Shown in pieces: positions 5,946 to 55,490 of a stretch of DNA of 64,000 bases. The notes below the pieces were generated by a model. That model saw only the letters and a list, made by a program, of their open reading frames with translations. It ran no database searches and was not told the DNA's origin. The stretch comes from Branchiostoma floridae (taxonomy: Eukaryota > Chordata > Leptocardii > Amphioxiformes > Branchiostomatidae). The position numbers were made by a program, and so were the translations under genes. The DNA lies in NCBI RefSeq assembly GCF_000003815.2, contig NC_049993.1, positions 9,915,050 to 9,979,049 of the forward strand. Direction: 5' to 3'. Every line of letters starts with the position of its first letter. The stretch's first letter is position 1.

Positions 5946-5981
5946 AAGGGTACCTCCGTGGACAGTATTAGACCAACCAAC

Positions 5982-16685
<10,704 letters not shown>

Positions 16686-18657: not shown

Positions 18658-21600
18658 CTACTTCAGTAGTCCCCATATGGCCAGTACCAGGGTCAGAAGG
18701 ACGGCAGCAGAGGGCTTGACGGTGGACCCTTCACCAACAGGACCTTCAAAACAAACATGAAATATGAATAAGTCTTTTTTCTTGATCAGTTTTACTTCAA
18801 ATTTACTTGTTGTGAGTCTGGTCTAAATCTGGTCTGCTATGTAACTGCACATCGTTGTAAAGTTTTAATGAACTGTCTGGGGACGATGTTGTAGCATGTG
18901 TACCATTCAGTATTTACTGTTGGCTTAGTTTTTCGTACTTACCAAAGGACCAGGCGTTATGACACCATATACACATCGGGGCGGGTCATTAACCCTTAAT
19001 TTTTATATGACATAATAGATAATGGAACCAACCAGTTTAAATTGTTTGACTGGACCACCAAAACTAGCCACAATAAGTGGTCACTACATATAGTACAGGT
19101 TTGGCTTTATCAAGTTGATTCAAACTATTGTTAATGTAGCAGACTTCACCCCTTTATTTCCATGACTGACATATAAGACACAAGGTACCCACCTCCACCT
19201 GCTCCACAAGCCCGGATGCAGATCCTCTGTGAGCTGATGATGGGGGTGTTAGCGTGCTGGGAAAAGGTCTCCTCTGCGTGGTTATAGCTGCCCCCTTGCG
19301 GGTAGAACATGTACAGGCAGTTGCTGTCCGTGAAGGCTCGGTCGTTGCTGTCACCTGATTCAAAACAGATTAGCGTAGATAAACATTAGTAGCAGCAATA
19401 ATGATAGAAAATACTTTTCTCGTGTTGTAGAGACAATGTACCTGTCCTTTGGTATAACTCCTAACGATACGTTTCCAAGGGCCTGAATGGACTCTAGTAG
19501 AGACACACTTCAGCCGATTTTGCACGTTCGACCGCAACTGTCCCAAAGTGCAATAAATTTGTTGTTGTAAACTATCGCAGGAAGTGTTAAACAGACACTT
19601 GAAAATGTACAAAACAGAATGCCCAGTTAAGTTATTTAAAACACAATGTTCTGCTTAGAACAGAATACCCAGTTCTTGACTTTGGAACAAAGTTCCCTTC
19701 TTCAGAACAGAATACCCATTCTTCGGAACAGAATGCCCTTCTATAGAACAGATAGAATGCCCAGTTCTGCAGAACATAACGCCTACCCGTGTTCCGTTTG
19801 CGAGTGAAGCTGAGAGTGACCATGCCGTCCGTGAACGAGCCTTGAGGATTCTCAATGTCATCTGTGGAGTCCTCGCCCGGGCGGGAATATCCAGTTGCAA
19901 ACCTGCAAGAAAAGGTCAAGTTAAACAAAATAATGTTAAACGATAGTTGTTTAAAGAAAAAAAGAACAGTTCTAGTTTTGTACATTGAATCACATTGCAG
20001 TTAGCTTGTACATCTCTATGTACCATACATTTTGCATATCTATTTCAGATAGAGCTTTTACTTCTAAAGCATTTTACGATATTTTCCTAAGATAGTGTGC
20101 AAATTTCCTTGATATAGCTGATATGTTTGCAAGTTAATTAGTGTTCTATATATAACCATTAGCCTGCACTTGCAACATTTTCATTCCAACACATACACAC
20201 AATCCAGGCAGTACGCCATAGAAACTACTGACCTATCACTGACGTACACGTCACCGTCGCCATTCACCCAGCCGACAATGGCATCAGTTTGGGCCTGGAA
20301 AAAAGGAAAACATCAGCGAATAGTTCCCTGAAGAACGGTTGACAAAGTATTTAATTAACATCTATGATGCACAATTAATTATACTAATACCGAGTATACA
20401 GAAATGAGGGAGAGTTAGATGTACTCTCCAAGCAGAGGTTAGGCTCAGGCTGTTTTTTAACGTTTTTTTATCGGGCTTTCTATTTTGTCATTTTTCTTGA
20501 AGTACGCCAGCCAATACAAGATACAATACAGAATAGAAAGCCCAATAAAAACGACTAAAAACGTTAACAAATCAACCGGAGCCTAACCTTTGCTTGGAGA
20601 GTATTACTAAGTTAAATGGGCATTAGTAGTACTTACCATGCTTCTGTCCTCGGAGAATCCGATCCCGACCCACCTGTCATTGGGCTGCCTGCTTTGGATC
20701 TGGAAGTCGACCTAAAGAAACCACAGAACGCACCAAACGGGTTGAAGAAGTTTGCAAAATTTTAAAAGGGATCATCGCTCTAACGGTACAAAAATTTCTC
20801 TCAAAGAAACATTTCGCCCTTTCACAATGTCTAAGAATCCTTAAAACACTCCTTATATCTGAATTTGGTTCTCTTAAAGATATTCAATTCCTTTATTGGA
20901 GAGGCCCAAAGCCTTTACAAAAAATACGAGACATTCGCGAAAGACACGTTGAGATACATGTAATGTAAAGACTATATTTCATATTGACTTATTGTCCACA
21001 AATCTACAAAGCATACGTTAAGCAAAAGCAATAATATTTGTGTTCCAAGTCGTTCCGTGGAAAGAAAAATGCACCTTGTCAGTACGGGAGTTGTAAGTCC
21101 AGGACACGGAGTGGTCACAGGCCAGGCCCTGGCAGTTGGCGGGAGAACTCCACCGTCCGCGGCAGTCTCCAGCGATACCGGCCTGGTTCGGGTCCTCTGT
21201 AACAACCCAAACATACGATAAACATGCTTGGTCTTTTAAGCCTGCGTCAGAATTAAATAAAACACCGGCTTAAGTTTTAGATCGGAACTCCAGCCGAATT
21301 TCAAAATCGCCCCTAGCGACGATAGTATTTTTCGTAGTTGTCCCATCACAAATTTGGCTGGGCTCGTTGTGTCCTTCCGGAAATTTATGGTCTCTTCTGC
21401 CTTTTTCGTGCACAGCTGACATTACTCGGAGGTTTCTCAATGCTTGCTGGAGCAAAAAGAGATAGTCAGCAAAGTTTTTCAGACGCTATCAACACTTACC
21501 AAACTTTAGAAAATGTACCACCACGTACCGAAGACGTTGAAAGTAGCGGCGCCCCTCTGTGCTCGGGAGGTGCCGTGGTACTTCAGTTCATCCCGGCGGT

Positions 21601-24600
21601 AAAACCTACAGAAACGGGAGTCAATAACCGTAAACGGCGATTAGAAATGTTCTCATGAATGTTTATGTGTGAAGCAGGCAAGATGATCTGTGTATTTCGT
21701 TTTAAATAACCCTTGCACCTAGCTTAGCCTTTTTGGCATGCAAACATTTTATACAAAATCGATCAAGTAATGGGTCGTTTTCATATGCTCCCGAGAAAGA
21801 ACCTGGTCTATGCACGAATGAACCAGGATGCATGATGAAATTATAAAGGGTGACAATGTGATCAAACACGTTAACAAAGACGACCATGTCCCCAAAACGA
21901 AGGGATACTTGTGGTAGATCGATGTACAATGATTTATCTATTCATTTGTTTCATAATGTGTTATGCTGTAACGTTGCCACACTTTTGGGCACAATCAGCG
22001 GTCGGTTTTGAATCCGGGACCTCTGGGGATTGGGCCAAACACCTTACCGATAGGGCCACACGATGCCACCCCGTGTGGAGCATTCTAGAAAACATTACCT
22101 ACATCAGTTGCTACTCACATGTAGTCCGTGGCGTTGCAGCTCTCCACCGCGGAGCCTGGTCTGTGAACGTACATGCCGTACTCCTGGCCACGGGCGTAGA
22201 TAAAGTGCATCGGAGCATTGTAGAAACTGTGGTCTGGGTCTTCATTGCCTAGAATGGTCAAAGCGGTAAGTTACTATTAGTCAATCCATTTATTAATTTC
22301 TATCATACTCACTACACAAAAGTTACTCATGCAACTCGATAAAGATTTATCCGAGTTTCCAAACTAATCCAGATGCTCGTGTAACGTTAACGTTATCTCA
22401 TTATCTGGGTTTTGAACATTCATTGACATTTCTTGCTTGATAACTGTATATGATACAATATATGACAATTTCTACAACAATCATAAAACAGAGATCCACT
22501 CTACAAAAGACAGTGTGGTATAAGTTGAAATCATGAACATGTAACGTTATATGTACGTGTATAATTTGGGGAAATTTTTAATGTCTATGCACCAATACTA
22601 GTAGTAGACCAATCCTGTCGAACACTATCTCGAACAGATAGAACTCCCTGTTCGGAGGTGTTCGAAATAGAACGATGATCGAACAGGGGCTGGGCTTCGG
22701 GATCGGTCTATTCTTACACAACACAGACTGGGATTTTTTTTCTATTTGCTTTTGGACAGACAAGGACAATGTGGCACTGCACTCAAGTTTTGTAACTTAT
22801 ATCAACAGTGCCACATACACGGTACCCATTTTTACACCTGGGTGAAGTGAGGAAAGTCGTGTAAAGTGCCTTTCCCAAGGGCACAACGTCGGGGGCATGG
22901 CGGGGATCGAACTCAGAACCTCTAGATTTCGAGCTGAACGCTCTACCAGTTACGCCACGCCCGACGCCACTGGGATTTTTGGGAACGCATGAGGCAATGT
23001 TACTCACTGATGAGTTTCCTGCGGAACATGATGGTTGTTTTGCCGTCCCGCTGTTCTCCGTAGGCGGCGGTGAGGCTGTCCCTGCCGTTATACCAGCGGT
23101 CCATCTGCGGTGTGGACCGGTCCCGGGTGTAGTAGTCCCCGATACGGTGGGTGTTCCCTATCGCTGTGCCGATCACCATGTCCACACAGTCCATAGCGTG
23201 GAGGCCTCCCCCTGAGGACAGCACAAGTCAAATATTTTAAAACAAATCGAAAGCATGTCCAGATGAGAAGACATGAAATCGGACGTACCACTGGAATCAC
23301 GGAAATGACTAGGAGGCAAACAAACGACACACAAAATGTATTTTCCTGCGGTTGGGAATATTCCCCATATTAGCTGAAGGTGTACAAAAACTGCGCTGAC
23401 CTCCTTGCTCTGGCTCGCCCTCGGGCTCGGGTTCACCCGAAGGTTCAGGCTCGCCCTCGGGTTCGCCCGAGGGTTCAGGTTCGCCCGAGGGTTCGGGTTC
23501 GCCTTCGGGCTCAGGCTCCGGTCGACCTGCGATAGTAGAAAAACAACACTTCATAGCACTTCATACCTCAATTGCTGATAAAACATTAAGGCCTACGGCA
23601 CGTTTCCAAACTGGGGCCCGGCCAGGCAGCTTTGGGGAACGAAAAGTATGATATAAGAGACACCAAACTACACAAAATGTAAAGAGAATAGATTCGTGGG
23701 CATTATCTGTGTAGATGTTTAGTTATACATGTCTATTTTCGTTTCCACAATTAGCCCAGCCGGGCCCCGGTTTGAAAATATGATGTTAGCCTACAAGGCT
23801 CTTGCCTCCCAGACTCTATGTGGGCCCTTCTCGCAGAAGAGTCTGACCAATGACATGGCTGCTGGAAGCGTGATTTACAATCAGCTAGATTTATGAAGCA
23901 TATGGTGGCATTTCTTTACCAACACAACAGATACTTTAATTCACTCAGATAGAGACGTGGGTTCCAATGGATAGATGTGAAGTTTGAAATGATTCTAGAG
24001 TCTGATCTTTTAGGACCTTAGTTTCTGTAGGCCTTACTTCCGTTTGCCCGGCACTGCCATGGGATGAAGGCTTCTGGCTCGGCCTCGGGTTCGGCCTCGG
24101 GTTCAGCCGAGGGTTCCGCCCGGGGAAAGCGCAGATGGTGGACAGCCCGGCGGCCTCGGTTCTGTAGGCATCAAACGTGTGTCAGTGTCACTGACGAAAG
24201 GCAGTAGATTCTACCTGAAACGTCTGACCGTTTCCAAAATCATACCTAGTTGTTTGAGTAATTACTACTTGACGTATCAAACGTGTTATCTATCGTTTTG
24301 TCATAAAAATTATTCACAATGAAAAGTTCTTAAGAAGTCACACTCGTGCACCATCTCTCTGCAACGGATCGACATTCTAGAAACTTAGCCTTCTAGTTTG
24401 TGAGAGGAGTGAAACAGGCTGCCTTCATCGGGTCACGCCAGCGTTAACCTTTTTTCAGCCGAGACGGGGGACGGTACTAACTTCTGGCGAATTTTGACCC
24501 AATGCTTTAGTCTCGTGCGAAAAAATCTAAACGTTTCCACAGCACCCAGGGCTGTACAACACTGATAGCTGAAGAAGACTGACACAGATTCGGTAGAAAA

Positions 24601-27600
24601 ATCCGGTGAGTGAGACAACAATCTAGTCGTTCAATACTAGATGGATGGACAGTTAGCCTGTGTTTACACAAGCTCTCGCCGGCTGGGCTTAATGACCCCC
24701 TCCCCCCGGCGGCAATCGTAGGGCCGGCCGCTAGGGGCGCGATTTTTGTCAGGCTAGATGGACAGTTACCTGAGGTGCCTGTGTCGGCTCTGCCTCTGGT
24801 TCTGGGGTAGCCTCTGCCTCTGCCTCCGGCTCTGCCTGCGGGTCCGAGCTGAAGTAGGTCACGGGGAAGTTACGGCAGGAGGCCGTCAAACCTGGAATAA
24901 CAAACGAGAAGTTAAGATTTCCTCTCGGATTGGGACTTAAAGCCGGCGGCCTCGTATACCGCCAGTCGTAAGCCTCATACGTTAAACCATTGCATGTAAA
25001 AGAACCCATGGCCATCACAGGTATCGAGAGGAGCAGGGAGTGACCCGATGTGTTTGGCGACAACGCGAGCCACAGTATAATTGCACTCATACCNNNNNNN
25101 NNNNNNNNNNNNNNNNNNNNNNNNNNNNNNNNNNNNNNNNNNNNNNNNNNNNNNNNNNNNNNNNNNNNNNNNNNNNNNNNNNNNNNNNNNNNNNNNNNNN
25201 NNNNNNNNNNNNNNNNNNNNNNNNNNNNNNNNNNNNNNNNNNNNNNNNNNNNNNNNNNNNNNNNNNNNNNNNNNNNNNNNNNNNNNNNNNNNNNCAACAG
25301 TTCTGTAGAAGGTTTTTTAGATAGCTTTTGGTAAGAAGTCTGAAACTCCTACCTTGTGGTCTCCATCCCAGACCAACCCATGTCGTTCCCTCTACCTGCA
25401 GGGCCACTTCGATCTCGTTCCCAGTCTGGAAGAGATTTTTTAGAATGGCGTCAACGGAATGAAGCATATATCTAAAACAAACTGTTACAAATGACCTATA
25501 TTTAATGGTACAAACTACAAAGTGGTGTAAACCACATACTTTTTGTACAATTTGGATACCTATTAAGGCTGCCCGACAGCTTTTGGGATCGCTAAGTAGG
25601 ATATAAAGACAAACAAAACACACAGAACGTAAAATGATTAGTCGTCAGCATAATTCGTATATATTCCTTGATAAACACTTTAATTTTTCGTTTTTCTGCA
25701 AACATCCCGGCCGGGCCCCGGTTTGAAAATTGGACCTTAGCCTAAAGCTGCCAAGTCTCTTCATCTTTAATTCTCACACAAGTAGGACGAAGAACTTGAC
25801 TAGATTGGTAGCCGTCATCTGTTTGGATGCCGTGCAGAGGATACTGTAACGTTACCTATTTGTAATTTGCATGTTCATAAGAGAAGAACGAGAGAATCTG
25901 TAAATATTGTACAGGAAAAGCAGTGGAAGATGAAATGCACTTTATTTGTCATTTTCCACACTACAGTGCCGAAAGAGACAAACTATTCAAACTAGTCAAA
26001 AAAATTTTCCCCAGCATTGCACATCGTACCAAACTACAAAAAAAACTGTTTTCCTGTTAGCACCACCCAATGCATATGTCTCCCAAAATGTCGGGAATTT
26101 CATCCTCCACTGTATACGGAAAAGAAATCAAACCCAATAGTTTTCATTTTAGATTAGAAGTATCACTAATTGATGATCCCTATTTCACTTAATGTCCACT
26201 TTGTTATTGTATCATTATCATCATTGTACTTCCATACATGTATTTTTGCAATTAGCCTTCGGGCATGAGTTTGCAATAAAAGATTATTATAATCTCGAGC
26301 TTGTCTTAAAGGCATACTACGCAGTTTTTTGCGCTCAAATTTGAAATATTCTAGAATTAAGAAATATCAGATTTACTACTACTTTTTGTCACTTTTTGAC
26401 ACTTTTGTGTCATTATTTCACGTTTGCAACGTAAAGGATTAGCCTACAAACATTCCGCTCTAGGCACCCTGTAACCTTGTGTCCCCCCAAGTTAGACCCA
26501 CCGGGTCTTGCTTGCCACTGGTAGGTCCCCCGGGGTGGGGTAATCAGTTAGCACATGCATGGCAGACTGCAGATAAAGAACACAATGGAGACCTTCTTTG
26601 GAAACACCTATCATTCTAAAATAGCATATAATCATGAACTTATTAGTCTATTTCGTAGGATATCAACAAGCTAAGGTCATATTCCCTTCAAAACTGCAAG
26701 AAACCTTGTACAGAAAGCTAGTCTACTGTACTCAGAGGAACTGTCAACTGGCCCCCCACTGGGAAGCCAGGCTGATAAGCAAGAAACAACAACACACAGA
26801 GGCAGTAACCAGCCTGTGCCCATCTGTTTCTTGGAAGATCACAATTTTTATACATCATGCTAATGTGGTGCATTGATGTCGCAGCATCTCTCAATGAATA
26901 TTGGTATGCAATGCTATAGGGTTGATTGAACTAACAATGTAAAGAAAAAGTAGGAAAAGCTACTTTTTGTTTTGTTCAAAAATCCCGTAGTATGCCTTTA
27001 AGAATCCGTTATATGATACATACGTCCATCGTCAGGATCTTCCAGTACATGTCCATCCCGTTCGTGAGTTCCCGGCGGTAGTAGCCGCGGAAGTTGGAGG
27101 GGATCGCAGTCAGCGGGGACTCTGAAAACAAGGAGCACAAAAAATAGTCAATCATAGTGAATATATTAATAACGAATCACGGTATCATCAATGAAAATGA
27201 TACCATTATGAGAAACAATAAACACGGCAATAATGAAAAAGATGGTAGCAAGAGCGAGGGCCGTGCGCATGCAGGTTGGTTAAGGTAAAATTGGAGGTTT
27301 GCAAGTACATTATTTTTAAAAAGATTTTCTGTATCTAAGCTGTACTTCTACATGCACTGAGTACATAAGATATAGGTACATGTATGCGGATTTAACTGTA
27401 CTGATGGTTACCTTCTGTGAATTGTTAGATAAAGATGAATGGATAACGTTTTTACACAGTTACTTGTTCCATGTACAGTCTCTAAAACTCTATATCTTAG
27501 CTGCACCGGGTAGGGATCTAGTATGCAGAATGGAGTATTTCGAAGTTAGAATGTACCTTTCGAGCAGTCGCGTCCAAAGTAGCCACTGTGGCAGTAGCAC

Positions 27601-30600
27601 TGCTTCTTGGGGTACGAGGTGGAGTCCACATTCACGCACACGCCGTTCCCGCTGCAGTCTGAGGCGTTCAGGCAGTCATCTGATGCACAATAGGCAATAC
27701 ATACAAGAAAGGTGAAGATCATGTGAACAGTCATCCTCCTACGCACGGTCCCCAACGGCTAGCTGACTCAGCCTATGGGGCCCTGCTATCTCATGGCCTA
27801 CCCGCAGTTACTTACAGTTCCTCGTCGCCCTGCTTATAAATATTAATGAGCTTACCCTTATATGGGCAGTCAGCCGTTGGGGATCGGGCGTAGAACTTAG
27901 AAGGATGGTGCTATGTAAGACGTAACATGATTGGCTGATAGCTTCCCAGCGGCCTTTGGAGACAGCTTTCGACAACAAAAAGCCCAAGAAAAGCCTATTC
28001 TCCGATTGGTTGACAGCTGGTTTGTGGCGACAATCATAATAACCGCTGGTAGGCCATGAGATAGCAGGGCCCCATAGGCTAATACCGTTGGGGACCGGGC
28101 GTTAGGAGGATGGTGAACAGTCGGACATGGCTAGGGGCAGGGGGTTGTTAGTACGCTGTGTTTTTTTTGTAAGGTATTGAAGAGGGAGGCCCACCCTTTT
28201 GCCTTCCAGTCCATCTACGCCACTCAATACAAGGAAACGTGTATAGTTGAGTTGTCTCAAGATGTTTTAAGGATAGGGCTAAAACATGGACATGTAGGAA
28301 AATCTACCTAATGGGCCATCAGAAGTTTTGAAAAGTTAACTGGAACAACCACGGACTAAATGAATGGACCAAGGACGGTTCCTTGTGGAATGCTACTTTG
28401 TGGAAACAAGGAAAATATGATAGCAGATATGTTGAGACCGCAATTCCTGTGATGCGATAAACCGTGCCACATACTGACCTCTGTACTGACATCTGTCTCC
28501 GCTGTATAGCCTACGGCAGGTGCTGTTCCCACACTGTCCGCCAGGGCACGCTGTGGCAATACAAACATATCACACATTGTATGTTAGAACGCAGTAATAT
28601 CAACAGTAGCGCCGTGTAAGGTGCGTGTATCGATATCAACATCAGGTCTTTGTACGTACACTTGATAATCTTTTTGCATTGCCACAAATGCAACTAGTAC
28701 TATAAAAAAATTCATCTACCATTAACAGCATGCCTGGAAAATGTGCGTCACCTCGAAATAGCTACAGCTGCTCAAAGTGATCAACTCTCACGTCCATAGG
28801 AAAGTTTGGGCTAGTCTCTAACATGTACAACTGTCTCAAATGACAAATTATGATATTTATTTTTAATAAAGTGAAGTAATCTAGTGGAGTCTCATTTTGA
28901 GAAAAGTGACGTACTTGGGCTGCCTGTTGGGACGATAGTGACGTCAGCGCAGCTCCAGAAGATGTAGTCGTTCCCGTTTGTGAGGCGCCACTCTCCCGCC
29001 TGGCGGAGCAGCCGGATAGTGCAGCGGTCGCAGGTGAAGTCAGACGGCAGGGTCAGCTCGTACCTCTGCACGCTGTGCGAAGTACAAGAACAAGACCAAG
29101 AATGATTTTACTGTTTTCCTGTCTTGATCTTAATTCTTTAACCATTTATCTCCACAGCGCAAGTCTGAAATAGGTTAAGTATCTTTCAATGGCTACGAAC
29201 ACAAGCAGTAAACCCGACAAGAAATTTAGACTTATAACGTTACATATGCATTTCATATCACAGTCAAACCGTGTATCAGAGTCCTATGTTTCACATTCTT
29301 TTCCATTCATTGCATTGTATACAGCTTCCAGGAAAGAACTTGTACTTGCAATAAAATTATCATCAGTATCAATCACTAATGACAATGTCATGTACTTTCA
29401 ATCTACTCATGTCATGTCCAGACTACATTTCTTCGTATTTAGGCCAATACATTTGTAATGCTCTAAAAAAGAGAGAATCTATTGTACAGTAACAGACCAA
29501 CTTGTCAAACTTGCATATTACACCATGTCAATACGCCATTTATGTTCACATTTCTATACTATATTTGTATGTAGTTATAGAACTTAGACGAGTATCATAA
29601 TTGTATTAATTGACTTGTTACTGTTGCCTTACAATTGTACCATGTACAAATGTTGTGCAATAAAGTTCATTCATATGTATATATATGTATTATCAGTCCT
29701 TACGTGGCGTCGTGCGCGGCGGCCCAGCCGTCCCCAGGGGTCAGCACCCGCAGGACGTCCGTGGTCGCGTTAAAGTCTGGTCCGGTGTTGTTCAAGATCT
29801 CCAGACGGATCCCTCCCTAACAAAACACAGATGATCGTTAACTATACTACAACAAGCACGCTGGCACAAAGGATATCATCACTTTATCATCACTTTCGTT
29901 AAAGTCTGGCCCCGTGTTGTTCAAGATCTCCAGACGGATCCCTCCCTAACAAAATAGAGAAACAACGTTAACTACAAGAAGCACCCAGTCATGTCAACAA
30001 ATGATATCGTCACTTTATCATCATTTTAATCTAAGTCTGCTACAGTGTTGTTCAGGATCTCCAGCTAGGCGGATACTTCCCTGATGAACAACGTTAACTA
30101 CAGCAAGCACCCAGTCATTAAACAAATGATATCATCACTTCATCGTCACTTTCTTTAAAGTATGGTGCCTGGACATTGAGAGCTGTTCTTAGAAGTGTCA
30201 TATATGGAATGGAGACAGTTGGGAGGCGTGGATCAGCTATGTGTGAAAGGGGCTTACCACTGCAAGAAGCATATAGAAAGTAGCCTATCTCTGCCAGCAA
30301 CATTAGTAATGTCCAAGAAGTATACGCACTGGTCCAGCTTGCCTTCCTCATAATTTTTTCTAGATATATTGTACGTTTTCCAATTTGTCATAGTAGGAAT
30401 GATGTGCCATTAACCAAACTACAGTGCTGGAAATTACCATCTGCAATCAATAGTAAGCAACTTCTTGGTCCTATGAATATGCCCATATGTATAATAGCGC
30501 ATATGTACACCTAGTACCTGTTGACTCCGTTATGTTTCTGCTGTTAACAGCGCAACCTGTCGTACTGCACTGTCATTGCAGCTTGTTCTATTTTTGATGA

Positions 30601-33600
30601 CACAACAAACCCCTTCGTTGCTTTTGGCTGTGGTCTATGAACCATTTAGACCCCAAACAGACAAGCGAGTTGATGCTGCATTGCAAACATTTTTCCATCC
30701 ATGGGAGGGCGAGAGGGGTTGGCTGTGTGATTTATTACGTCGATGAAGGTTTATAGACATCCAGGTAGTAAGATACGCCAAATAGCAATTACTCAAGCAG
30801 CTGGATATGGTTTAGGAAGCCCGGTCAGACATTTCAGATAACGTTCGTTATCTTTCGTAAGTGACACTGATGAAAGTGTCATTTATTGTATTTTGTAACT
30901 ATCGATCGGGGAACGGTCATGGGTCACAGAACAATGCAAATACAAGTAGATGATGCATTCTTTATCTATAGAATACTTGTAGATCGCTTACAGAGAAAAC
31001 ATTTGTTTGAAATCAACAAAGCTCCAACGTGTCGGCAAATTATCAACATAAATCCAATCAAGTTTAGTTTAGTTTTGTACTCTTAAAGCATAGGTTAGGC
31101 TCCGGTTATTTGGGGACGTTTTTCTATGCGTTTTTATCGGGCTCTCTAGTTTGTTCGTGTGTTTTCTTGATGTCTCGCGACCTGTAAAAACGTTAAAAAA
31201 AACAGCCGGAGCCTAACCTCTGCTCGGAGAGTACTGTTGGTCTTCAATGTTTTTAACAACCTTCCCCTCCTCCCAGAAATGTTATATCTAGACATAATTG
31301 CTCGGTGCCAGGTACGGACGGCACGGTTGTCATGACGTCACTATGTATTGAAAAGCTGAAGGGCATTCTTTGCACGCAAGTCACTCAACAACTGCAACAC
31401 CTGCTAATGTATGCATAGACACACGGCACTGAATCACTCAGGACTTATGGTGGCATCTCACTGCTTCAATGACTTTCTGAACCCTTTTACTAATGAATAT
31501 ACTTGCTTTGCATGCTGAACATTGCGATGCCTTCTTAAAATAAATATTATGCTTCAAAGATAATCTAACGTATTTGGAAAACCACAATAAATTGATCTTG
31601 TGAGAGGTATTTCCAAACGGTTGAGCATATAGCTAAAGGTGGTATGTCATTGCACTTGGGGCACCGGTGCGGCACTGCGGGGTTCGAAAGATTCCTCAAC
31701 GAATTTCAGAAATGAAGAACAATTTCCTTACGTTGTGTGTACAGTATTTTGTTGTCTTCTAAGTCATACATTTACGTATTACGCAACATCTAAATTATCT
31801 AAAAAGATCGGCGAAAATGACACAACAGTGCCGCAGTGAACGAACCCTGCAGTGCCGCATCGGTGCCCCAANNNNNNNNNNNNNNNNNNNNNNNNNNNNN
31901 NNNNNNNNNNNNNNNNNNNNNNNNNNNNNNNNNNNNNNNNNNNNNNNNNNNNNNNNNNNNNNNNNNNNNNNAACCATGATATTCATTTTAAGAAGGCATC
32001 ACGTTTTCAGAATGCAAAGCTGGTAGTATGTTGAGTACTTAAAGGTACTAGGTTTCAGAAAGTCATTGAAGCGAAAACGCGGGACAACATTTCACTGTCC
32101 GAAACGTGACTTTGACAGAAACGTCGAGTCACTCGAGTGACTTTAATAGACATCACAGTTTTCATGCTGTGACCTCAGCAGTCCTAGTGAGTGGTTGGTT
32201 TGTCTTATCGAAAAAAAATAAACGATTTGAATGAAATTAAAAGACGGACTGTAACTCAAGATAGCAGTAAATCAAACTTAAAAATGTGGTTAACAGACAC
32301 GATAATTACTTAATCGCCAGGTTTGTTATTGACAGTCTGTGAATGCCACCGGGCAATCGTATGGCTCAAAGGTCACTGGTCTCGGCCTTGCACAATCCGT
32401 GTGATACGCCGGAGGGCAGTTATGTCGGCTGCACAATACAGGTCTACAGTTACTAAAAAACAAAATGATCAAGGTATCATGAAGGGGAAGGCCCGTACCC
32501 TTGCTGAGGTCATAGGGGCACTGTGCTATTAAATCATGTTGTCAATAGGCAACATGTATGAACTACGCCCCCCCCCCCCTTCATCTTGACTATTTTTACC
32601 TAGCCTAGACAAAGAATGGTCTTTAAATTGCATGGCGCTGAAGCCAAAACATGCATAGGGTATGTTGGTAGTGTATTTGCAAACAGGCTGGCAAGTTGAT
32701 GTTCCGGACATGCACGCATTAGCATGTATGGGAGGGGGCATTCAATAGGTGAAAAGGTTCGCTATTGAAAACTTCTGGCTATCTATTCTCTTTACATATA
32801 CCTTTCATTTCACATATCCACGCATGCGCAATAAACATGCGTTCTTCCTCCTTTGCACAATATCCAAAGTAACACGCAGCTACTTATTAAATCAAATTAG
32901 TGTTTCAGTTTTAAAATATCACCAGTTTCCTGAGAACAGAAAAGATTCATTTTCATTTATTTGCTCATCCGGGAAACGCATTTGTTGCTTTAGCTGTTGG
33001 GCGACCTCAACAGAAAAATTACTTCACACATAAAGATAACGGAACGTATGGCAGACATATAAACTAGCACCATATGATAAACAAAAGTTGGCGTAAAAAA
33101 TGAAATTTTCCAAAGAGTGTACGACAAAAGCCAGTTAATTACACAACGGATAACGCACACTTCTGTTAACTGCATGCAATCCCAAAATCCCAAGCCGGTG
33201 CGGTCCAGCTGGATAACTTCGCATTATTGCACTACCCGGATAATTGCATGAAATATGAACTACGCTAACAAATAGGCTGTGCAATTGAACGGTACTGTAG
33301 TACCAAATGACGTCAGTGCTCACCACGTGCGCGTACGCCATGTGCCAGGTGACGTTGAACGTGGAGCCGGCCAGGAAGGTCGTCATCGGGCCCATTCCTG
33401 TGGACAAAAACATATTAGATCATCTTAAGATACAAGAATCTGAGAGTTCTACAAAGAGCCTAGCCTCCTTAGCAGATTTCTGAAGCGGAGGCGGTTATTA
33501 CTCGGGGGAGCGCCGGTTCACAATTTCAAAACCTTTTCCCACCACCACCACAACCGACAAAAATCAACGCCACTGATCCAGAAATCTAGTTTGTGAGTAG

Positions 33601-34476
33601 GTCTTGATGAGATCTTGTAGTGATTCGATTTTGGGCCCCCTAGTGGCTTGATACAGTTTCGATACCTTGAATTTGTGAATGGTGGATAGTTTATATATAT
33701 ATACATGAAGAAAGGTGGATATTAGTAGTTTATACACAATAATCATAAGTCGGAAGACATTCCACTTAGGGTATTCAAGATTTCAATCTTGTTCTCGGGA
33801 ACTTGACCTTACCTCATGCCAAGACAAGTTGCCAGGTTAATGCAAACATTTTATTTATAGTGTTACTTTAGTATTTAATTTAGTATTATTATGTACAGGA
33901 CGTCCAAGCAAACTGAATCAGCTAAAAGGCAAAATATTTCTATTCTTTCATACGTTAAGTGTCACATATATTCAAGACTAAAAAAACAACGGAATCCACA
34001 ATATAACGACATTGCCAATCTTAAAAGTATAGTGCAGGTTCATTGGGGCTAGCGCTGCTGGTTGAAAGCAGCACCTCTTACTGACTTCTGACAAATCCTT
34101 CCGGAATTCTCAAATTGGACACCAGACATACACATATACACATGGAACAAGTATATTTCATAGAGTAGTGACACAGTACTCTTCTCAGTTGGATATATAA
34201 GTCAGTTAGCCGTACCAGCTACTTCAAGGTCCTATTGAGCTCAAGAAGGAGGTTAATGAACTACAGACGACGTTTTCACAAAGAGAGAAAAATGCCAATC
34301 AATTATTTATAAGAAGATCTTTCTCCGTATCGTTTCATTATGGGCACATGTGAGGCTTAAAGAGAAATGCACGCAACTTTGTCGATATTACAGCACTCTC
34401 CCCTATTGCGTCAGACTCCTCAATGAAAACTTGTAGTGTTTTTTAAAGGAATGTCAGTGTAGCGTATTTAATATGT

Positions 34477-34512
<36 letters not shown>

Positions 34513-34577
34513 AAATGATCATTGTACAAAATTGCAATTCAGCCGTTAGGCTGCAACAGTTTTTAATCCAATAAACC

Positions 34578-34638
<61 letters not shown>

Positions 34639-37600
34639 TAGGGTGAAAACTGTCTGTGATCCAGCGCAACCTGGCCCTAACTTTTTGCATCGTTATACAT
34701 AAAATATTGATTACCAAATACCTTAGATACCATACGCGTGAATCAGTCTCGGTCTACATATCAATCGCTTGCCAATACATAAAAGACTGCTTTGGGAATT
34801 AAAAAAGATAGTGACACCCATGTTTATCCCCATGGAGGTTTTCGTATTTTCATATATAGTTTAGTTCGTAGAGTATTAAGATTTATTCTGTATCCTCTTT
34901 TTACAGTTTATATTTATTTGACCATACAGAAGTCACCGTGCTTTTTTGTCGTGCCAATAAAGCTTGCAGTATGAATGCTGTATGAACAGTATATCGTCTT
35001 AAGAAGTAACTGCGACCCTATCTTCTAAATGAATTTAGCTACATCTTGCAATGGAAAGAATTTCACATTTTGTGAATAATGCCGAATTATTTATGATGCT
35101 AATACACTAAAACGCTTTGTATTTTGTTTTTGTTTTGCTCCTGTATTAGTTAAAATGCGTATCCATTCTAAAAATCTCTCTAACACGTGTACAACGTACT
35201 CCCTGTATTTTCCCAAAAATATTCTCCTTAAGCCCCGTTTACAAATCAAGAATTTAGCTCGGCCGAGTTGTCAGCGAGCTCTAAATTACGAGGAGGCATG
35301 AACCTGATGCCTACGAAGAAATGGAAGAGTTTCTTCGTCGAAGGCTCCCTAAAGCCCCCTTTACAAATCAAGAATTTCGCTCGGCCGAGTTGTCAGCGAG
35401 CTGTGGATTACGAGGAGGCATGAACCTGATGCCGACGAAGAAATGGAAGAGTTTCTTCGTCGAAGGCTCCCTAACCTGATTACTAGTAATAACGGATACA
35501 CGCTCATCACACGGCTCCATTGTTTCGGTACCACCTGTACAAGACAGTTATGTCTGTCACGTCCTGTGCTCCTCCCTCTGACGTGAAATTGAAAGGTTCA
35601 GTCACGATCGCCTTTGTTGAATTTCACTCGGCCGTTGAGGCCAATGTTAAGATAACAACAATAGTGCAAAGTCATAAGTCTCCGGCTATACGGATGGTTA
35701 ATTTGAGGCGCGGTCGGTCATGGGCATTCCAGATGAAGTACGTAGCTTTTTGTTTCTTTTATTAACTGATTCAATGAAAAAAAAATCACTTGTATGAAAA
35801 TAAAAACTGGGCCGTGTTTATCCCTCAAACTGATTCAAGAAAAACGAAGATGTTTTTGTCTTTAATTTCGCACGACTTTTGAGGTCAATGTTAAGATAAC
35901 ATCTATATAACTGCAAAGTCATGGACAATACGGATAGTGATTTTACTGGCACAGAAAACTAGCGTCTACCAGGCTCCGCGGATCGGTGGTCTAATTGTAG
36001 GAAGGTGAGGAAACTGATCCTCTGGCCGGCCGACTCCCCTTGCGTAGATCTACAATAGACTCTATTTGTCCAATTTGTACAATTAGACCACCGATCCGTG
36101 GGGCCTGGCAGAGGCTAACAGAAAACCTAAAGCTAACACCATAAGAAACTAGAGTTCGGGGACCTCATACCTCCATGAAATATTTATTGCTTTTTTGTGG
36201 ATGGTATGTATGTTTATAGTCGGTTGTATTTGAGAGTAATGGTTATATAATATAAATGTTATGGGAAAGTAGTGGTGTATTTATTTAATGACACAGAGGA
36301 TGTCCATCTGATTAGTAATTATCAAAATGTGACACTTAATTGTGTAATGTGCGTTTAAGAGGTCGACGGCATATGGTAGCGTGGTGTTCCTTAAGCTTGA
36401 TGTTTGGCATTTAAACTGTCTAAGGTTGTCAGCATTATTGAGGTTCGACTATGTGCCTCAGAGCTGTGTGGTGGGAGGAAGTTGGGAAACTCAGAAAGAA
36501 GAAGGGATGTGGCCAACTTTAGTCAGATGGTGATTTGTTTTTCCACCAATATGTCATAACATCAGCTGTTCACACGGTACAAAAACGAGATGCACACTTT
36601 CCTCTGACAGCCCTACACCAACTGTAAGATGAATACTTGGCGCCAACCCCGTCTGCTAAAAAACAAGTACCATTGGCTACGAAAGAGACAACTAACAACA
36701 ATGAAAAGTTTGTTTCTTCTTCTTTTTTTGCCATACATTGTACCGTGTACGATCGTTGCGCAATAAAGTTCTTCATAACGACATGACCCGCTTGCATTGC
36801 GACGTTTTGCTAGTCACCGTAGCGGTGTGCTCAGCCTGGCACCGTTAATGTAATCGTAAGACCAACAACACGTTTTCATAGTAGTACTTCCCCGAATTTT
36901 CACCGTTACTTCCTGCACGCACCCCTCTCAATCAGTCAGTAAACTCATTGGAGATGTGAAGTACAATAAAGATAATAGAGTATAAATCTGTCAGTCATCT
37001 CTTGTGTTTCTTCCCCTATCAGTATTCGAATTGTTCTTAATGATCCTTAAACGACTCTTAATTCCTCCCAGAATTGTTAGCTAACGTAGCGACAATTTCC
37101 GTTTTTTTTCGGTGACATATGTGCCAGTCACTGCCGTGCCCGGACCAGCCTGTGCGTTTTTGACATATTGAACGGTCAACAATACAGTTTAATTTATTGT
37201 GGTACTTCCCCGAATTTTCACTGCTACTTTCGAGTGCAGGCACCTCTCTCAATCGTATAATTCAATTCTATAAAATAGTAGAATATAAATTATGCCAGTC
37301 ATCTCCCGTGGTTCTCCCTCAAACTGTTCTGAAACGAACCTTATTTCCTTTTAGTGCTGTTACTGTAGCTAACGTAACGACAATACTCGTTTTTCTGTGA
37401 CATATGTGCCAGTCACTTCCGTGCTGGGTCTAGCCTGGTACCGTTGTACGTTTTGTCATCTTTTAAACGACCAACAAAACGCGTTCATTGTGGTACTTCC
37501 CCGAATTTTCACCGCTACTTCCTGCACGCCCCCTGTCAAGGGTCGGGGCTACTGTTTTCTGTTTACTGTGTCAACAATGGCAATATAAATGGTCCGGTTA

Positions 37601-40600
37601 ATTATAAGGACTAGCCTGGATGCCAGACCCCAGCCCGATCTCTATCTATAACGTGTGGGGATATTTTTGAGATCGGTCTTGGGTCTGGTGTCCAGGCTAG
37701 TAAATGACGTTAGGTTAGGTCAAGGACATTAAATAATGTTCTTGTCCGACTCCGCGTTAAACGCGTGGTTCTGAGGCTTTTTACACGTGTTCCTAGTGGT
37801 CTGCATTTTAGAGTAAGATTAAAAGAAACGCAGATCACTTGAAGTACGTTTAAAAGGCCTCAAAATACACAAGCAAATACTGAGCGGGATCCTACCTCTG
37901 CTTGGAGATTAGATCCAATTCAGTATGCCTACCCGTGCGTTATAAGTGTTCGGCGCTCTGGCATTACCAAGTGCTTGAGAACCTTGTTGCCTTTGGCTAA
38001 TGGTTCTTTGATAATTTTGCTCCCGACATCGCGGACCGGTACGGTACCGCCCGTGCTAACAGTTGATTAACCGCTTAGTGACGTGTTCCTCAGCTTGTGA
38101 TTAGAGTATTTTAGAAAACAAACCTGAAGAGTCACCCAGTAGGAAAAATGCATCTGTATTCAATGTAGAAGGTTGTGACGGGTTTTCAATTATATGTATG
38201 TATGACTGTGGCCTAATTATAAAGTAAAGACTAAGAATAATGTGACATTCAAACAATACCGTCAGTGTTCTTAGATCCAGCTCTGATATGTGAATAGATA
38301 TGGACAAAGTCTGTTAAGAACCCGATCGGCAACTAAAGACAAAATGGCGTCGCGCAGACGTCATGGCCAAATCATGTAAAAGTCACTGCGCCATTTCTCC
38401 TTATTTTCAATGAATAAAATGTTTTGATTGCTGTCATTTGCATAATCGTAGACTCTTGTCTGCATCCCTTCTTAAAGGGGTCCTTAGGTAGTGTGTACTC
38501 GACAACCTTTAATGGGCCTTAACTGCCATTAATCGGGTGCCCTCAGGCACTGCACCTCCATGTGACAGCGGTAAACAGTCCGAGGCACCCCGCCCATTTT
38601 TTTGTATCATTTACGCTTCTTTGCCGCTGTGTTCTACAAGCTTAAGTTTATTAGCCGTGAGAGGCATAATTATGAACGATAGAAATGTCATTAGTATTGA
38701 TGATTGTGCCTTTTTGCCACTTCTGGTCATCATTTTTGAAAGCGGCATTTTACCCCGAAAGAAACTTTAAAGTCATTTTGTGAGTGGACATGCGACCAAC
38801 TGGGCCAATTATGACGCATGTGTATAATACATGTAAAATAGAAAGCCAAAGATTCATACGCAGTGTACAAAATACTTTTCTGAGCCTGGTTGCACAGTGT
38901 GCAACCTGGGTCAAAACTAGGTTGCACAACTGAATTTCAAGTTGCACCGCCTAGAATTCACTATTAAAAATGTCCATCTGCCAAGAAATCTGCAATTATT
39001 GACATGTTTGGCTGCTATGAAACGGAACTGCCTCGTTCCATTTATTTCTTCCAAGTAAATTGACAACAAAATCGAGTTCTGAGGCTCAAAATCAAAGTTG
39101 CGCCCTGTGCAACCTGAGTTTAGAAGTAAGTTGCGCCAAGCAAAAAGTGGTTGCAATGTGCAAGTGTGCAAGTGGGTATTTTGCACGCTGATACATGAAG
39201 ACTATGTTTAATATTCACCTTACACCTTTAGAACCAACCGCGCCTCAAAAGTCAACCATCCGTTCAAGTGACGTCCGAGAGAGATCATTGCTGTTTACCT
39301 GACGTTGGCCCCAATGGTTGGGTGAAACTTAAGAAGAAAGTCGTGACTGGGTCTTATTCATCTTTTTTGAGGGGGCGTCGGAGGTATAGGGGAAACGACT
39401 AAGCACAGTAATGAAACAAAGTGATTAAATCCTTATTATAAGAGAGTCATGGCCATCCGTGCAACCAGCAAGCCAGGATGATGATGATGATGATGATAAG
39501 ACTTTAAAACTAATTTCAAACATGAAGAATATTGTGTTCTAATTCTGTCGTTACTCTACATCTAACGTCTTAGACGTGAGGTGAAAGTTAAAAAAAAATA
39601 ACTACTGTAATAGGATAACGTATTGGAAAAGATCGGAACAAAACAACGATACACAAAAGAAAGTCCAATTTGAAACCTGAGACACTCTACATCTATTAAA
39701 CACGATGTTTCTAGACGAATCACAGGATTAGAGACATCGTTGATCTGACAATACAGCGACTGTAGTTTCTCTACGACTCAGGGAACATGGACAGGAGTTC
39801 GTCTTGAATCGTACATCGATTACAAGGTTTTAAATAGAACATAGTAGGTGCTCTATTATCAAGAATCATCAGTTCCTCGGGGCAAATTACTTCCGAGACT
39901 GCGGGCATAAAGAATGATATTTTACGTGTCGTACGTATACGCTGTAGCCATTGTATCAAATCTATATAAATGGCATCTATCATTAATAAGCTAGCGTCTC
40001 CTATGGTATCCTAATAATGTTGTGGTGCATCAGCAGCTGAATACTGACAATGACAACCTGACATATAGAATGTGTAGAAAGATTAGGTTTTAAAGTCTCG
40101 GATTTTCAGCCTGTACCCACCCCAGTTGTCGAAAGCTGTTGTTATACGGTTCTGTGGTTTTCACCCACAAAACAGGACCACCACCACCACACAGACACAC
40201 CGCTCCCGGACCACTACAGAGGTACATGGAGCGGTAGACCATGTCTGTCAGCTTGAAAGGGTTTTGTGGCTGCCAAAATGGAGACTTTTTTGGTCCGTGT
40301 TTTTAAGTTGTCGCCAAGGGCTATTGTAGTGTACGTAGTCCGGGGTAGCTTAATACCGTACGGTTGTGAAACGTGAAACCAGGCAGCGCTACAAGTCGGC
40401 ACGCCAGGCGACTCAAGACCACCGATCCTCCGCGCTCCGTGTGTATTGTGGACACTTTTTTTTTTAGATTTTCCGGGTAGTTTACTGGCTACATTTACGT
40501 CCTTGAACCCGTGCTCATAAACAAGGGAGAAGGAAGCTACACGCAACTGTAGGTAGGTCAAGGATTGTCAACAGCAAAACAAAAATGTTTCTCAAGAAAA

Positions 40601-40848
40601 TACCCGTCTCCTTTCTCTGTGGATTTTGTAAACTGCGATGTAATGTATAACGATAGGTAATAAAATAGATATGATCATGATGAATCAGTAAAGAACGTAC
40701 CAGGTCCGACGCCGCAGGGCGCGCGGGTTCGAGTGTTGTCCAAGAAGTCGAAGGCGAAGCGGCGAGCCGGCGGGAACGTCAGGCGAATGTGGGCGGACGT
40801 CAGTGCGACCAGGCCCGCCAACACGAACAGACCCGTTCGGTAACCCAT
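18658..40848 (-). CDS. Secreted LPMO-like / EGF / DOMON multidomain protein with GPI-like tail
   Basis: Twenty exons (high to low): 40701-40848, 33324-33397, 29704-29816, 28915-29072, 28479-28550, 27557-27679, 27024-27121, 25353-25425, 24770-24891, 24038-24161, 23401-23526, 23008-23211, 22119-22248, 21529-21605, 21075-21196, 20637-20711, 20233-20294, 19787-19902, 19193-19354, 18658-18743. All phases agree (754 aa). Signal peptide 1-19 leaves a mature N-terminal His ([11 protein letters not shown]). Residues 20-165 look like a copper monooxygenase (LPMO) fold: His20, His73 in [11 protein letters not shown], and FTCDRC...[11 protein letters not shown]. Then come a 4-Cys motif (166-188), an EGF-like domain (191-227), DOMON-1 (231-286 and 412-525) split by a Glu/Pro-rich insert (304-411), DOMON-2 (549-726; [28 protein letters not shown]) and a hydrophobic end ([15 protein letters not shown]). 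DOMON domains bind haem or sugars. The LPMO assignment is inference from motifs; the enzyme activity is unproven. Confidence 0.9.
20421..20604. mobile_element. TA-flanked MITE, CTCTCC family, copy 1
   Basis: Termini TACTCTCCAAGCAGAGGTTA and its complement enclose about 180 bp, with inner arms TTTTTATCGGGCTTTCTATT and GAATAGAAAGCCC. The flanking TA suggests a Tc1/mariner-type target. Related copies lie at 31078 and 46291. It is in an intron of the minus-strand gene. Confidence 0.85.
21960..22065 (-). mobile_element. tRNA-derived SINE fragment
   Basis: Read on the minus strand, TGTGGCCCTATCGGTAAGGT leads to a box-B-like segment (complement of TTTTGAATCCGGGACCTC), which resembles a tRNA D-arm and T-arm in order. 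No complete cloverleaf or acceptor stem is seen. Confidence 0.45.
22749..22970 (-). mobile_element. tRNA-derived SINE copy 2
   Basis: The minus strand starts GGCGTCGGGCGTGGCGTAAC, with a box A-like TGGTAGAGCG and box B-like GAGTTCGATCCCC, followed by a body with CCTTGGGAAAGGCACTTTAC and the same GTGGCACTG tail as the copy at 9096. It lies in an intron of the DOMON gene. Confidence 0.75.
23603..23777. mobile_element. Palindromic MITE (GGGCCCGGC type), copy 1
   Basis: Ends TTTCCAAACTGGGGCCCGGC and GCCGGGCCCCGGTTTGAAA are inverted copies. A related element lies at 25566-25731 with the same right end. Both are in introns of the DOMON gene. Confidence 0.75.
24181..24275 (+). repeat. Retroelement-end repeat with hammerhead-like motif, copy 1
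   Basis: CTGACGA at 24191 and GAAAC at 24217 flank a stem with GTAG and CTAC arms, preceded by GTC. This is the CUGANGA / stem II / GAAA arrangement of a hammerhead ribozyme. The following CCAAAATCATACCTAGTTG recurs in related copies at 30765 (minus) and 42491. Confidence 0.5.
25094..25294. other. Assembly gap (201 N) in a DOMON gene intron
   Basis: The flanking exons (25353-25425 and 24770-24891) join in phase as [14 protein letters not shown], so the gap probably hides only intron, although a small phase-neutral exon cannot be excluded. Confidence 0.95.
25566..25731. mobile_element. Palindromic MITE (GGGCCCGGC type), copy 2
   Basis: The right end CGGCCGGGCCCCGGTTTGAAA matches the element at 23603-23777, and the interior also carries a similar ACAAAACACACAGAACGTAA stretch. 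The left end is degraded. Confidence 0.6.
26310..26997. mobile_element. 688-bp TTAA-flanked non-autonomous element
   Basis: A perfect 12-bp inverted repeat (AGGCATACTACG ... CGTAGTATGCCT) is bounded on both sides by TTAA (26306-26309 and 26998-27001), the target-site signature of piggyBac-type transposons. There is no transposase inside. It lies in the intron between DOMON gene exons 7 and 8. Confidence 0.8.
27732..28112. mobile_element. 381-bp foldback element with 9-bp target duplication
   Basis: The arms (27732-27800 and 28047-28112) are inverted copies starting CATCCTCCTA and including GGGGCCCTGCTATCTCATGG. GTGAACAGT is duplicated on both sides (27723-27731 and 28113-28121). A 9-bp duplication is typical of Mutator-like elements. 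It lies in the intron just upstream of the EGF exon. Confidence 0.87.
28365..28412 (-). pseudogene. Reverse transcriptase relic
   Basis: A minus-strand frame reads [13 protein letters not shown], matching the conserved non-LTR RT motif [14 protein letters not shown]. Flanking sequence is not recognisable, so only a short decayed fragment is left. Confidence 0.5.
29817..30110 (-). repeat. Acceptor-spanning partial copies of DOMON gene exon 3
   Basis: The start of exon 3 (minus strand GGAGGGATCCGTCTGGAGAT) with its preceding intron end is repeated upstream. One close copy has its acceptor near 29946 and a diverged one near 30084. Units are about 130 bp and share AACGTTAACTAC with the intron part. 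Only the copy at 29704-29816 reaches a donor. Confidence 0.8.
30765..30875 (-). repeat. Retroelement-end repeat with hammerhead-like motif, copy 2
   Basis: On the minus strand GTGTCACTTACGA is followed by a strong hairpin (AGATAACG ... CGTTATCT), then GAAATGTC and CCATATCCAGCTGCTTGAG. The order matches the copy at 24181, with one change in the CUGANGA core. Confidence 0.45.
31078..31233. mobile_element. TA-flanked MITE, CTCTCC family, copy 2
   Basis: Left end TACTCTTAAAGCATAGGTTA (degraded) and right end CCTAACCTCTGCTCGGAGAG enclose GTTTTTATCGGGCTCTCTAG. It is the same family as 20421-20604. Confidence 0.8.
31455..32070. mobile_element. Nested foldback element interrupted by a gap
   Basis: Outer arms share CTTCAATGACTTTCTGAA (31466) and its complement (32052), then ATGCCTTCTTAAAAT and its complement near 31985. 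Inner arms share TTGGGGCACCGGTGCGGCAC (31656) and its complement ending at the N gap (31872-31971). The gap lies inside an inner arm and may mark a collapsed hairpin. Confidence 0.65.
31872..31971. other. Assembly gap (100 N)
   Basis: The gap lies within a palindromic element in DOMON gene intron 2. No coding sequence appears to be lost. Confidence 0.98.
34479..34634 (+). repeat. (TA)n and (CT)n microsatellites
   Basis: TA repeats at 34479-34510 and CT repeats at 34580-34634 are separated by about 70 bp of unique sequence. Confidence 0.95.
35228..35473 (+). repeat. 121-bp direct tandem duplication
   Basis: Two adjacent copies (35228-35348 and 35349-35473) share TTTACAAATCAAGAATTT, GCTCGGCCGAGTTGTCAGCG and GTTTCTTCGTCGAAGGCTCC with few differences. 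Confidence 0.93.
35967..36111. mobile_element. Palindromic MITE with ~32-bp arms
   Basis: Left arm TACCAGGCTCCGCGGATCGG and right arm CCGATCCGTGGGGCCTGGCA are inverted copies; the inner sequence includes a GCCGGCCGAC motif. No TSD is identified. Confidence 0.8.
36810..37570 (+). repeat. Three tandem copies of a ~300-bp unit
   Basis: GGTACTTCCCCGAATTTTCA recurs near 36885, 37200 and 37490. CATATGTGCCAGTCACT, CTAACGTA(G/A)CGACAAT and CCAGTCATCTCCCGTGG-like segments recur with the same spacing. It is diverged and non-coding. Confidence 0.8.
37611..37700. mobile_element. 90-bp palindromic MITE, TAGCCTGG family, copy 1
   Basis: Ends CTAGCCTGGATGCCAGACCC and GGGTCTGGTGTCCAGGCTAG are inverted copies around a short loop. 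A second member lies at 45543-45622. Confidence 0.85.
38861..39190. mobile_element. TTGCAC-rich interspersed repeat, copy 1
   Basis: About 330 bp bounded by CAGTGTACAAAATAC and GTATTTTGCACGCTG (inverted ends). The interior holds GGTTGCACAGTGTGCAACC, a perfect palindrome, plus several further TTGCAC words. A second copy is at 42637-42939. Confidence 0.8.
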
Positions 40849-47345: not shown

Positions 47346-48375
47346 ATCTCCTCTTATACTGTAATGCCTGAGGGCTGATGCCCATATTAGGTGATTATGG
47401 ACTTAATCACTCGGACCAGTCGTTCAAAATCCCTTGGGAAAAGTTACCGTAAATCGACTATTGAAGTATTGTTTAACCTGAATCACGTAAACTGTTGTTT
47501 ACGTCAGAGTAATTAATCATTCGGCTCATTAGTAAAAAATCTCTTGGGAAAATTTACCGTAAATCGACCAATTTAACTATTGATTACGTCAGAGGGTCAC
47601 TCAGGTCAAAATCTCCAAGTCCCACAACGCATTGCGACTTGAGGGTGAGCTACACGCTGACTGCACGTCTTTTCTGTCTTTTGTGATATTTGCTTTAGCA
47701 AACTTTGTGTAAGCACGAGTTGGAAGTATGTAACGCGTTTGCACCAGTATGTTTAATATAAATGGTTATAGAGAGGCATGGATGTCAATTTGTCGGGCAT
47801 TTTCTATTGCACAACTGGGGGAGGGGGGCACATTATACTTCTTTTCAGATACTCAGGCGTAGCTGAGCGGTTAAAAACGGCCCAGAGACAAGTTGCACGA
47901 GGATATTCCTTATTACCGTACCCCCCCAAAATAAGGACTTGATCTGTGTGCTAAAATAGTGCATTAGATGTCAATATTATACAGACTGCCTTATTCAGAA
48001 TATGATATTGCTTAGGTTGCCTTTAAACGTTACCCCTGGATAAAATGTAACCGTGGGTATATTGTAGTATAGGTTATATAGCCTGGCCTATAGTTCTTGC
48101 CCCCTCATCAGCTAATTACACACTTTGAATTATAAAATCAAATGTAATTCCAGTTGAATGAAAATAATATGATGCATTGTCCTAGATTTTTTGGACAATA
48201 AATATCTAAATGCTGTTCCAATTAAAAAAAGGGGGGGGGGGGGCATATAAACGTCATACTAATTTAAAAGCTTGTTGGTAAGCACTTTACTTTGTGTATG
48301 GTTAGACCACATAAAATTCTTTACAAAATGAATGATAGATATGCAATTTTATTGTCCTTTCCTTTTCAGGCCATC

Positions 48376-54270: not shown

Positions 54271-54369
54271 TTGGGTAGTCTGTCTGCTGCCTTCCTCAGG
54301 GTAGTTCCACTTCCCACTGCTAGGTGGCGCTGTAGTGGTGGTATGCAAAGGACCTTGCTACTCAGTGAT

Positions 54370-55315: not shown

Positions 55316-55319
55316 AGAA

Positions 55320-55490
55320 TGTCCCAGTAGCTCAATTGGTAGCAGCTTCCAGTTGAGCTCCTCAGGTTCCAATTAGCTAGTAACTGGGAGAAGGGTATCT
55401 AGTTGGAGCAGTACCGTCTTTTGGAAGAGACGTAAAATGGGGGTCCCTGTTCAAGTGCCTCGAGCATGTTACAACAGCCTTATTATTCAG
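55320..55490 (+). mobile_element. tRNA-derived SINE copy 3
   Basis: A tRNA-like head, CCCAGTAGCTCAATTGGTAG (box A) and CAGGTTCCAATTAG (box B), is followed by a body with AGACGTAAAATGGGGGTCCC and CTCGAGCATGTTACA. The body is like the fragment at 15930. It abuts the minisatellite. Confidence 0.6.

Follow-up and report, generated by a model that had tools for sequence, protein, structure and literature searches.

The window (the 64,000-nucleotide stretch of Branchiostoma floridae DNA analysed here) encodes a 754-residue protein in which an N-terminal, histidine-first domain homologous to an LPMO-fold family is followed on the same chain by an EGF-like region, two DOMON modules and a hydrophobic tail. 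Judged from its sequence, this architecture is real and joins two known kinds of module, and we hypothesise an enzymatic role for it. In fungi, histidine-brace domains and haem-bearing DOMONs cooperate across molecules, as in cellobiose dehydrogenase (CDH) and LPMOs, whereas here both seemingly reside on one animal chain. In the literature searched, to which preprints and most subscription papers do not belong, we found no study of a protein combining LPMO-like, EGF and DOMON parts, no paper treating AA15 together with amphioxus, no occurrence of the word SCE4755 (the bacterial family discussed below) and no assay of any of its members. One sentence in a 2019 paper suggests that the proteins it mentions probably have the same architecture; the available text of that paper contains no analysis of their residues, fold or function (PMC6950343).

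The gene lies on the minus strand at positions 18658..40848 of the window. Splicing its 20 exons from the window DNA by script gives 754 residues plus a stop in a single open frame, with GT-AG borders at 19/19 introns, which bears out the 20-exon gene proposed in an earlier note written from this DNA alone. Exon 1 (40701..40848) encodes the putative signal peptide (residues 1-19), which ends in TSA and directly precedes His20, and also Cys45. The short exon 2 (33324..33397) ends in AHV, the histidine of which is His73, the candidate second brace residue, and is followed by exon 3 (29704..29816; GGIRLEIL and onwards) within the LPMO-like domain. Exon 4 (28915..29072) completes this domain with FTCDRC (Cys126, Cys129) and, after GNDYI, FWSCADV (Phe150-Trp-Ser-Cys153-Ala-Asp155-Val), so that the motifs named in the earlier note all fall at the residues it gave. 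Exons 5-6 (27557..28550) encode a Cys-rich EGF-like region (residues 165-229), exons 7-14 (21529..27121) the first DOMON, exons 15-19 (19193..21196) the second, and exon 20 (18658..18743) the C-terminal tail, which by eye resembles a GPI signal; its residues 735-754 have a mean hydropathy of 1.66, compared with 0.96 for the highest 19-residue window within residues 26-718. The model was derived from genomic DNA, with signal-peptide cleavage and the GPI signal assigned by eye. The first intron is 7.3 kb long, and runs of N lie within introns 2 (31872-31971) and 8 (25094-25294), where a short exon could hide. Intron 2 also holds, at 29866-30189, three decaying copies, spaced 125-131 bases apart, of a segment comprising the 5' part of exon 3 with flanking sequence, the nearest of which still encodes a 16-residue stretch.

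When the N-terminal domain was used to query the organism's own genome (513 Mb, 431 contigs), the window gene and at least one other, on contig C4, were found. The C4 gene encodes a signal peptide with AHG as its last residues before a histidine and has the same brace residues; 60/133 residues of its N-terminal domain are identical to those of the window protein, and both domains are spread over four exons in the same layout, the 74-base second exon being identical. A tblastn search at this locus recovers, ordered as in the window protein, the EGF part, both DOMONs and a Pro/Glu-rich stretch, the last being similar to that of the window protein and repeated differently. The end of the first C4 DOMON falls near an assembly gap, the hydrophobic tail was read by eye, and all DOMON comparisons with this gene are alignments of hand-joined pieces. 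The shared layout, residues and order speak for the gene model and for selection acting on the architecture. Scanning the same genome with the profiles NF043005, LPMO_10 and BIM1-like gave no match; this negative carries little weight, the genes being cut by introns and two of these families being silent in control genomes too.

What kind of domain stands at the N-terminus? Over query residues 1-305 the best family assignment is NCBIfam NF043005 (SCE4755 family polysaccharide monooxygenase-like), with 41.1 bits (E 1.7e-10) below the curated cut-off of 75 bits, and the alignment runs from residue 17 to 156 on model positions 6-145 of 146. As a control, the same model matched 59/59 bacterial ORFs at E<=0.001 (best 2.2e-52) and gave a match above its cut-off in 3/3 myxobacterial genomes. 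The other profiles invoked earlier fared unevenly: DOMON is clearly above its cut-off, and the remaining two straddle theirs depending on the query, BIM1-like giving 31.0 bits on the whole protein and 26.5 on the N-terminal domain alone (cut-off 27) and LPMO_10 giving 23.3 bits on the domain alone (cut-off 23) and not being listed for the whole protein. Single-protein searches of viruses and plasmids, in plasmids also with the first DOMON, did not find relatives.

Bacterial members were gathered by scanning GTDB genomes with a motif-based DNA pattern, which yielded 70 loci. Seven of these (L003, L012, L026, L038, L052, L058 and L069) appeared by eye to be chance and were rejected; the other 63 were judged by eye to belong to the family. 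Of these, 59 were used for the counts, since L043 and L060 lack the N-terminus and L001 and L054 failed the spacing rule. Removal of near-duplicates (>85%) left 52 rows, and the alignment used for the profile and the tree consists of 39 of them, leaving out 13 rows with a wrong or doubtful first His (L070 included); the 59-row column counts include such rows. The profile from the 39 relatives gave 50.7 bits for the window domain and 42.5 bits for the C4 gene; among 500 shuffles, 310 of which were reported at all, the best reached 4.0 bits. The match of the window domain to the bacterial relatives is not chance. In an unrooted tree of 41 rows the two animal genes pair (100/100), and a branch of 2.64 separates them from every one of the 39 bacterial rows. 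The SCE4755 proteins, here mostly from Myxococcota, and the window protein share the same domain from end to end at 20-31% identity, with the brace histidines and four conserved cysteines in common; they differ in that the bacteria have Tyr at the axial place where the animal protein has Phe150, and in the long branch of the animal pair. Two oddities were met among these genomes. In the Nannocystis exedens genome (G002:C2:556505-557795; locus L009) about 430 bases separate two family genes that share a strand, and a metagenome-assembled genome labelled Bordetella parapertussis (L018), probably a mislabelled bin, carries a family member clustering with two rows from Acidobacteriota.

The alignment of 59 rows also allows individual residues to be compared. 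His20 falls on the first-residue histidine of the bacterial family, and the His20 and His73 columns are His in 58/59 rows, the single gap coming from a row with a wrong or doubtful first-His choice; the Phe150 column is Tyr in 59/59. Cys45, Cys126, Cys129 and Cys153 lie on conserved bacterial cysteines, and the conserved set kept in the window protein comprises His20, Cys45-Gly46, His73, Cys126/Cys129 and Cys153-Ala-Asp, with the proviso that the C-T-x-Q and CADI columns, and no others, were imposed by the search pattern. By contrast, three positions with little or no variation among the bacteria, Lys15, Glu46 and Asp84 (L055 numbering), are Thr, Met and Val in the window protein. An external reference is provided by the AA15 enzyme TdAA15A, whose copper ligands are His1 and His91, with Tyr184 as the axial residue (PMC5823890). 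His73 of the window protein aligns directly with His91 (E 0.051), and in the alignment of the bacterial profile, counted by hand, the second His matches chain position 91 and the Tyr of the family matches 184. Because these aligned positions are those of His91 and Tyr184, the window domain keeps the brace, with Phe replacing Tyr. An axial Phe is present in most AA10 enzymes. The alignments thus place His20, His73 and an axial aromatic at the copper-brace and axial positions, the arrangement that the earlier note had proposed to check, and a candidate copper site in the animal domain is supported. The N/Q/E-x-F/Y(W) motif given for LPMOs in PMC6950343 is absent, Tyr148-Ile-Phe150 standing in its place; in the bacteria the N/Q/E position is Glu in 2/59 rows and Asn or Gln in 0/59. 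Against a plain LPMO label stand this missing motif, the score below the SCE4755 cut-off and the resemblance to X325/BIM1 described below. At the level of sequence, homology of the His-first domain to an LPMO-fold family and the identity of its brace residues are solid.

The fold and its neighbours were assessed via the bacterial proteins. The predicted structure of a bacterial relative, on which the fold test was run rather than on the animal domain itself, has the LPMO beta-sandwich fold. Searching the PDB with the bacterial profile gave eight matches: TdAA15A (1.1e-7), an AA13 (1.4e-4), an AA9 and an AA10 (0.015 each), 7p3u (0.06), titled a chitin-active fungal AA11, another GH61 protein (0.6) and, last, two prostaglandin synthases that we took as chance. 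TdAA15A (5MSZ) differs from the family in several respects: it has 21% identity, measured to the bacterial relative only, a domain of 195 as against 141 residues, an axial Tyr, five disulphides and proven cleavage (PMC5823890).

C-terminal to this domain, the EGF-like region reported earlier is present, one model (EGF_2) giving 23.8 bits with the piece alone (cut-off 22.1) and falling short of that value when the whole protein is the query. Pfam DOMON matches the whole protein at 3.1e-46 in three stretches, and both DOMON-like regions exceed the cut-off of 32.7 bits when run alone, at 59.3 bits for the first (with its insert cut out) and 107.1 for the second. The insert, a Pro/Glu-rich segment of about residues 303-410 encoded by exons 9-11 (23401-24891, minus strand), sits inside the first DOMON. 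CDH-cyt gives 28.1 bits for the second DOMON piece (cut-off 27); the whole protein, at 26.5, stays just below. The best PDB match of the second DOMON is the cellobiose dehydrogenase 4qi3, at a weak E of 0.064; Met613 aligns there with a Met, and the RFATGY stretch is identical. With a two-sequence profile this enzyme is lost and dopamine beta-hydroxylase is the only match (E 0.073). The first DOMON alone had no PDB match, and those of its two-sequence profile all look like chance. Met613 and His706 are kept in the second DOMON of the C4 gene, and the position of His706 is assigned without alignment to a known haem His; Met417 and His507 of the first DOMON were placed by eye, Met417 being kept in the C4 gene. 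The haem ligands of the CDH cytochrome, itself a DOMON-family member, are Met and His, and cytochrome b561-class animal DOMONs keep both (PMC10691727), whereas sugar-binding DOMONs and dopamine beta-hydroxylase are without them (PMC4846438). Both DOMONs therefore carry a candidate Met/His pair, and haem binding is plausible given the DOMON and CDH-cyt scores, these residues and the b561-class precedent. CDH has a flavin dehydrogenase domain and donates electrons to separate LPMOs (PMC10726044), whereas the window protein has an LPMO-like domain on the same chain as its DOMONs and no dehydrogenase. Two other DOMON proteins considered, coral protein B5 (PMC3204972) and a diatom gene product (PMC8027222), could not be linked to the LPMO-like/DOMON architecture.

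Taking these data together, we tentatively propose, with confidence a little short of even, a secreted and probably GPI-anchored protein in which a histidine-brace copper domain is fed by DOMON haems to oxidise an extracellular glycan. The N-terminal domain would represent an animal offshoot of the bacterial SCE4755 family, with an LPMO-type fold and histidine brace. Once the signal peptide is removed, a single copper ion would be bound by His20, through both its amino group and its ring, and by His73, with Phe150 occupying the axial position, and the EGF-like repeats would space this copper domain from the two DOMON modules, in each of which the Met/His pair may hold a b-type haem. Electrons could then pass from an outside donor to the haem of one or both DOMONs and on to the copper, much as the CDH cytochrome serves fungal LPMOs, and the reduced copper, with oxygen or peroxide, would oxidise nearby glycan at the membrane. 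Since neither a dehydrogenase nor a membrane cytochrome is present on the chain, we infer that the first electron donor is a partner protein or ascorbate. A polysaccharide substrate is favoured by the aromatic axial residue, the sequence kinship with AA15 and the dockerins on 2/59 bacterial relatives, and weakly by the presence in the window of a GH9/CBM2 cellulase gene. The earlier suggestion of oxidase and electron-transfer modules on one surface chain finds partial backing in the brace positions, the candidate Met/His pairs and the weak CDH-cyt match; a plain LPMO label does not fit. The more specific version, that of a self-fuelled surface copper monooxygenase whose GPI-anchored chain combines an LPMO-type site with its own b-type cytochromes, needs no separate cytochrome partner to supply the copper with electrons and acts on animal or dietary glycan, in a lineage apart from the compared LPMOs that spans Myxococcota to animals, is possible but on the unlikely side.

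Copper acquisition is a comparably doubtful alternative and the foremost rival. As in fungal BIM1/X325 proteins, the domain would bind copper at the surface and the DOMON haems would reduce Cu(II) to Cu(I) for a transporter, and polysaccharide would not be cleaved. Cleavage activity went undetected in several X325 members (PMC7924993). By structure and by Pfam, X325/BIM1 is just as good a neighbour, X325 ranking second by VIA-align and tying with AA15 in fold, and BIM1 is GPI-anchored (PMC10952591). X325 is nevertheless not among the best 50 Foldseek matches listed, the bacterial profile search of the PDB finds LPMOs and no X325 at E<=10, and the fourth copper ligand of X325 is Asp (PMC10952591), whereas the window family has an aromatic at the LPMO axial place. 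The descriptions available of the X325/BIM1 fungal proteins mention no DOMON. The gene surroundings and domains of the bacterial members also bear on this question. In the 59 ORFs, which are trimmed N-terminally and in some cases cut by locus ends, the MYXO-CTERM surface-anchor model matches 21/59, the two dockerin-bearing members again argue against copper acquisition, and neither EGF nor DOMON models match the ORFs as trimmed. Ten neighbouring ORFs from 4/70 loci have no common theme and, in what is a weak test, include no copper gene at E 1e-6.

A non-catalytic part in glycan binding or adhesion, with the LPMO-like domain and DOMONs binding sugars or proteins, the EGF repeats acting as spacers and no redox chemistry, strikes us as improbable. 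Sugar binding is known in DOMONs (PMC4846438), the insect DOMON protein Knickkopf organises chitin (PMC11354708) and the missing LPMO motif would fit; however, binding alone would not demand the brace histidines seen in both amphioxus genes and in nearly all bacterial rows, nor do the candidate haem ligands kept in the second DOMON of both genes favour it. Finally, that the model fuses two genes or starts from a wrong first exon, so that the chain is not one protein or not His-first, is very unlikely despite the long first intron, the N runs and a model built from genomic DNA, as the C4 gene has the same domain order within about 8 kb and shares the layout of the first four exons.

Should the copper site of the proposed glycan-oxidising protein be active, this would be a second type of animal LPMO besides AA15, membrane-held and with an attached electron relay. 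The named family SCE4755 and the residues His20, His73, Phe150, Met417/His507 and Met613/His706 make the idea directly testable, and the small, intronless bacterial homologues offer an experimental starting point.

The remainder of the window contains several other features. At 5972-10015 on the plus strand, some 9 kb beyond the 3' end of the LPMO-like gene, lies the cellulase gene mentioned above, with CBM2 at 26.3 bits (cut-off 24) and GH9 pieces at 62.2 and 72.7 bits (cut-off 27.7); one GH9 stretch occurs twice in the ORF at 9626-10015. TdAA15A worked with a GH9 in vitro (PMC5823890). A partial CDC20/Fizzy-type WD40 gene at 1705-2735 (plus strand) gives 214 bits (cut-off 200) from two hand-joined pieces, and a reverse-transcriptase-like ORF of 373 residues at 14516-15637 (minus strand) is, by eye, probably a retrotransposon remnant. 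Two very similar long ORFs, BTB-Kelch-like by eye, stand head-to-head at 43665-45350 (minus) and 48292-50055 (plus). Repetitive DNA occupies 54226-55372, with short repeated units open in several frames, and 62391-63644, with a 45-residue pattern on the minus strand.
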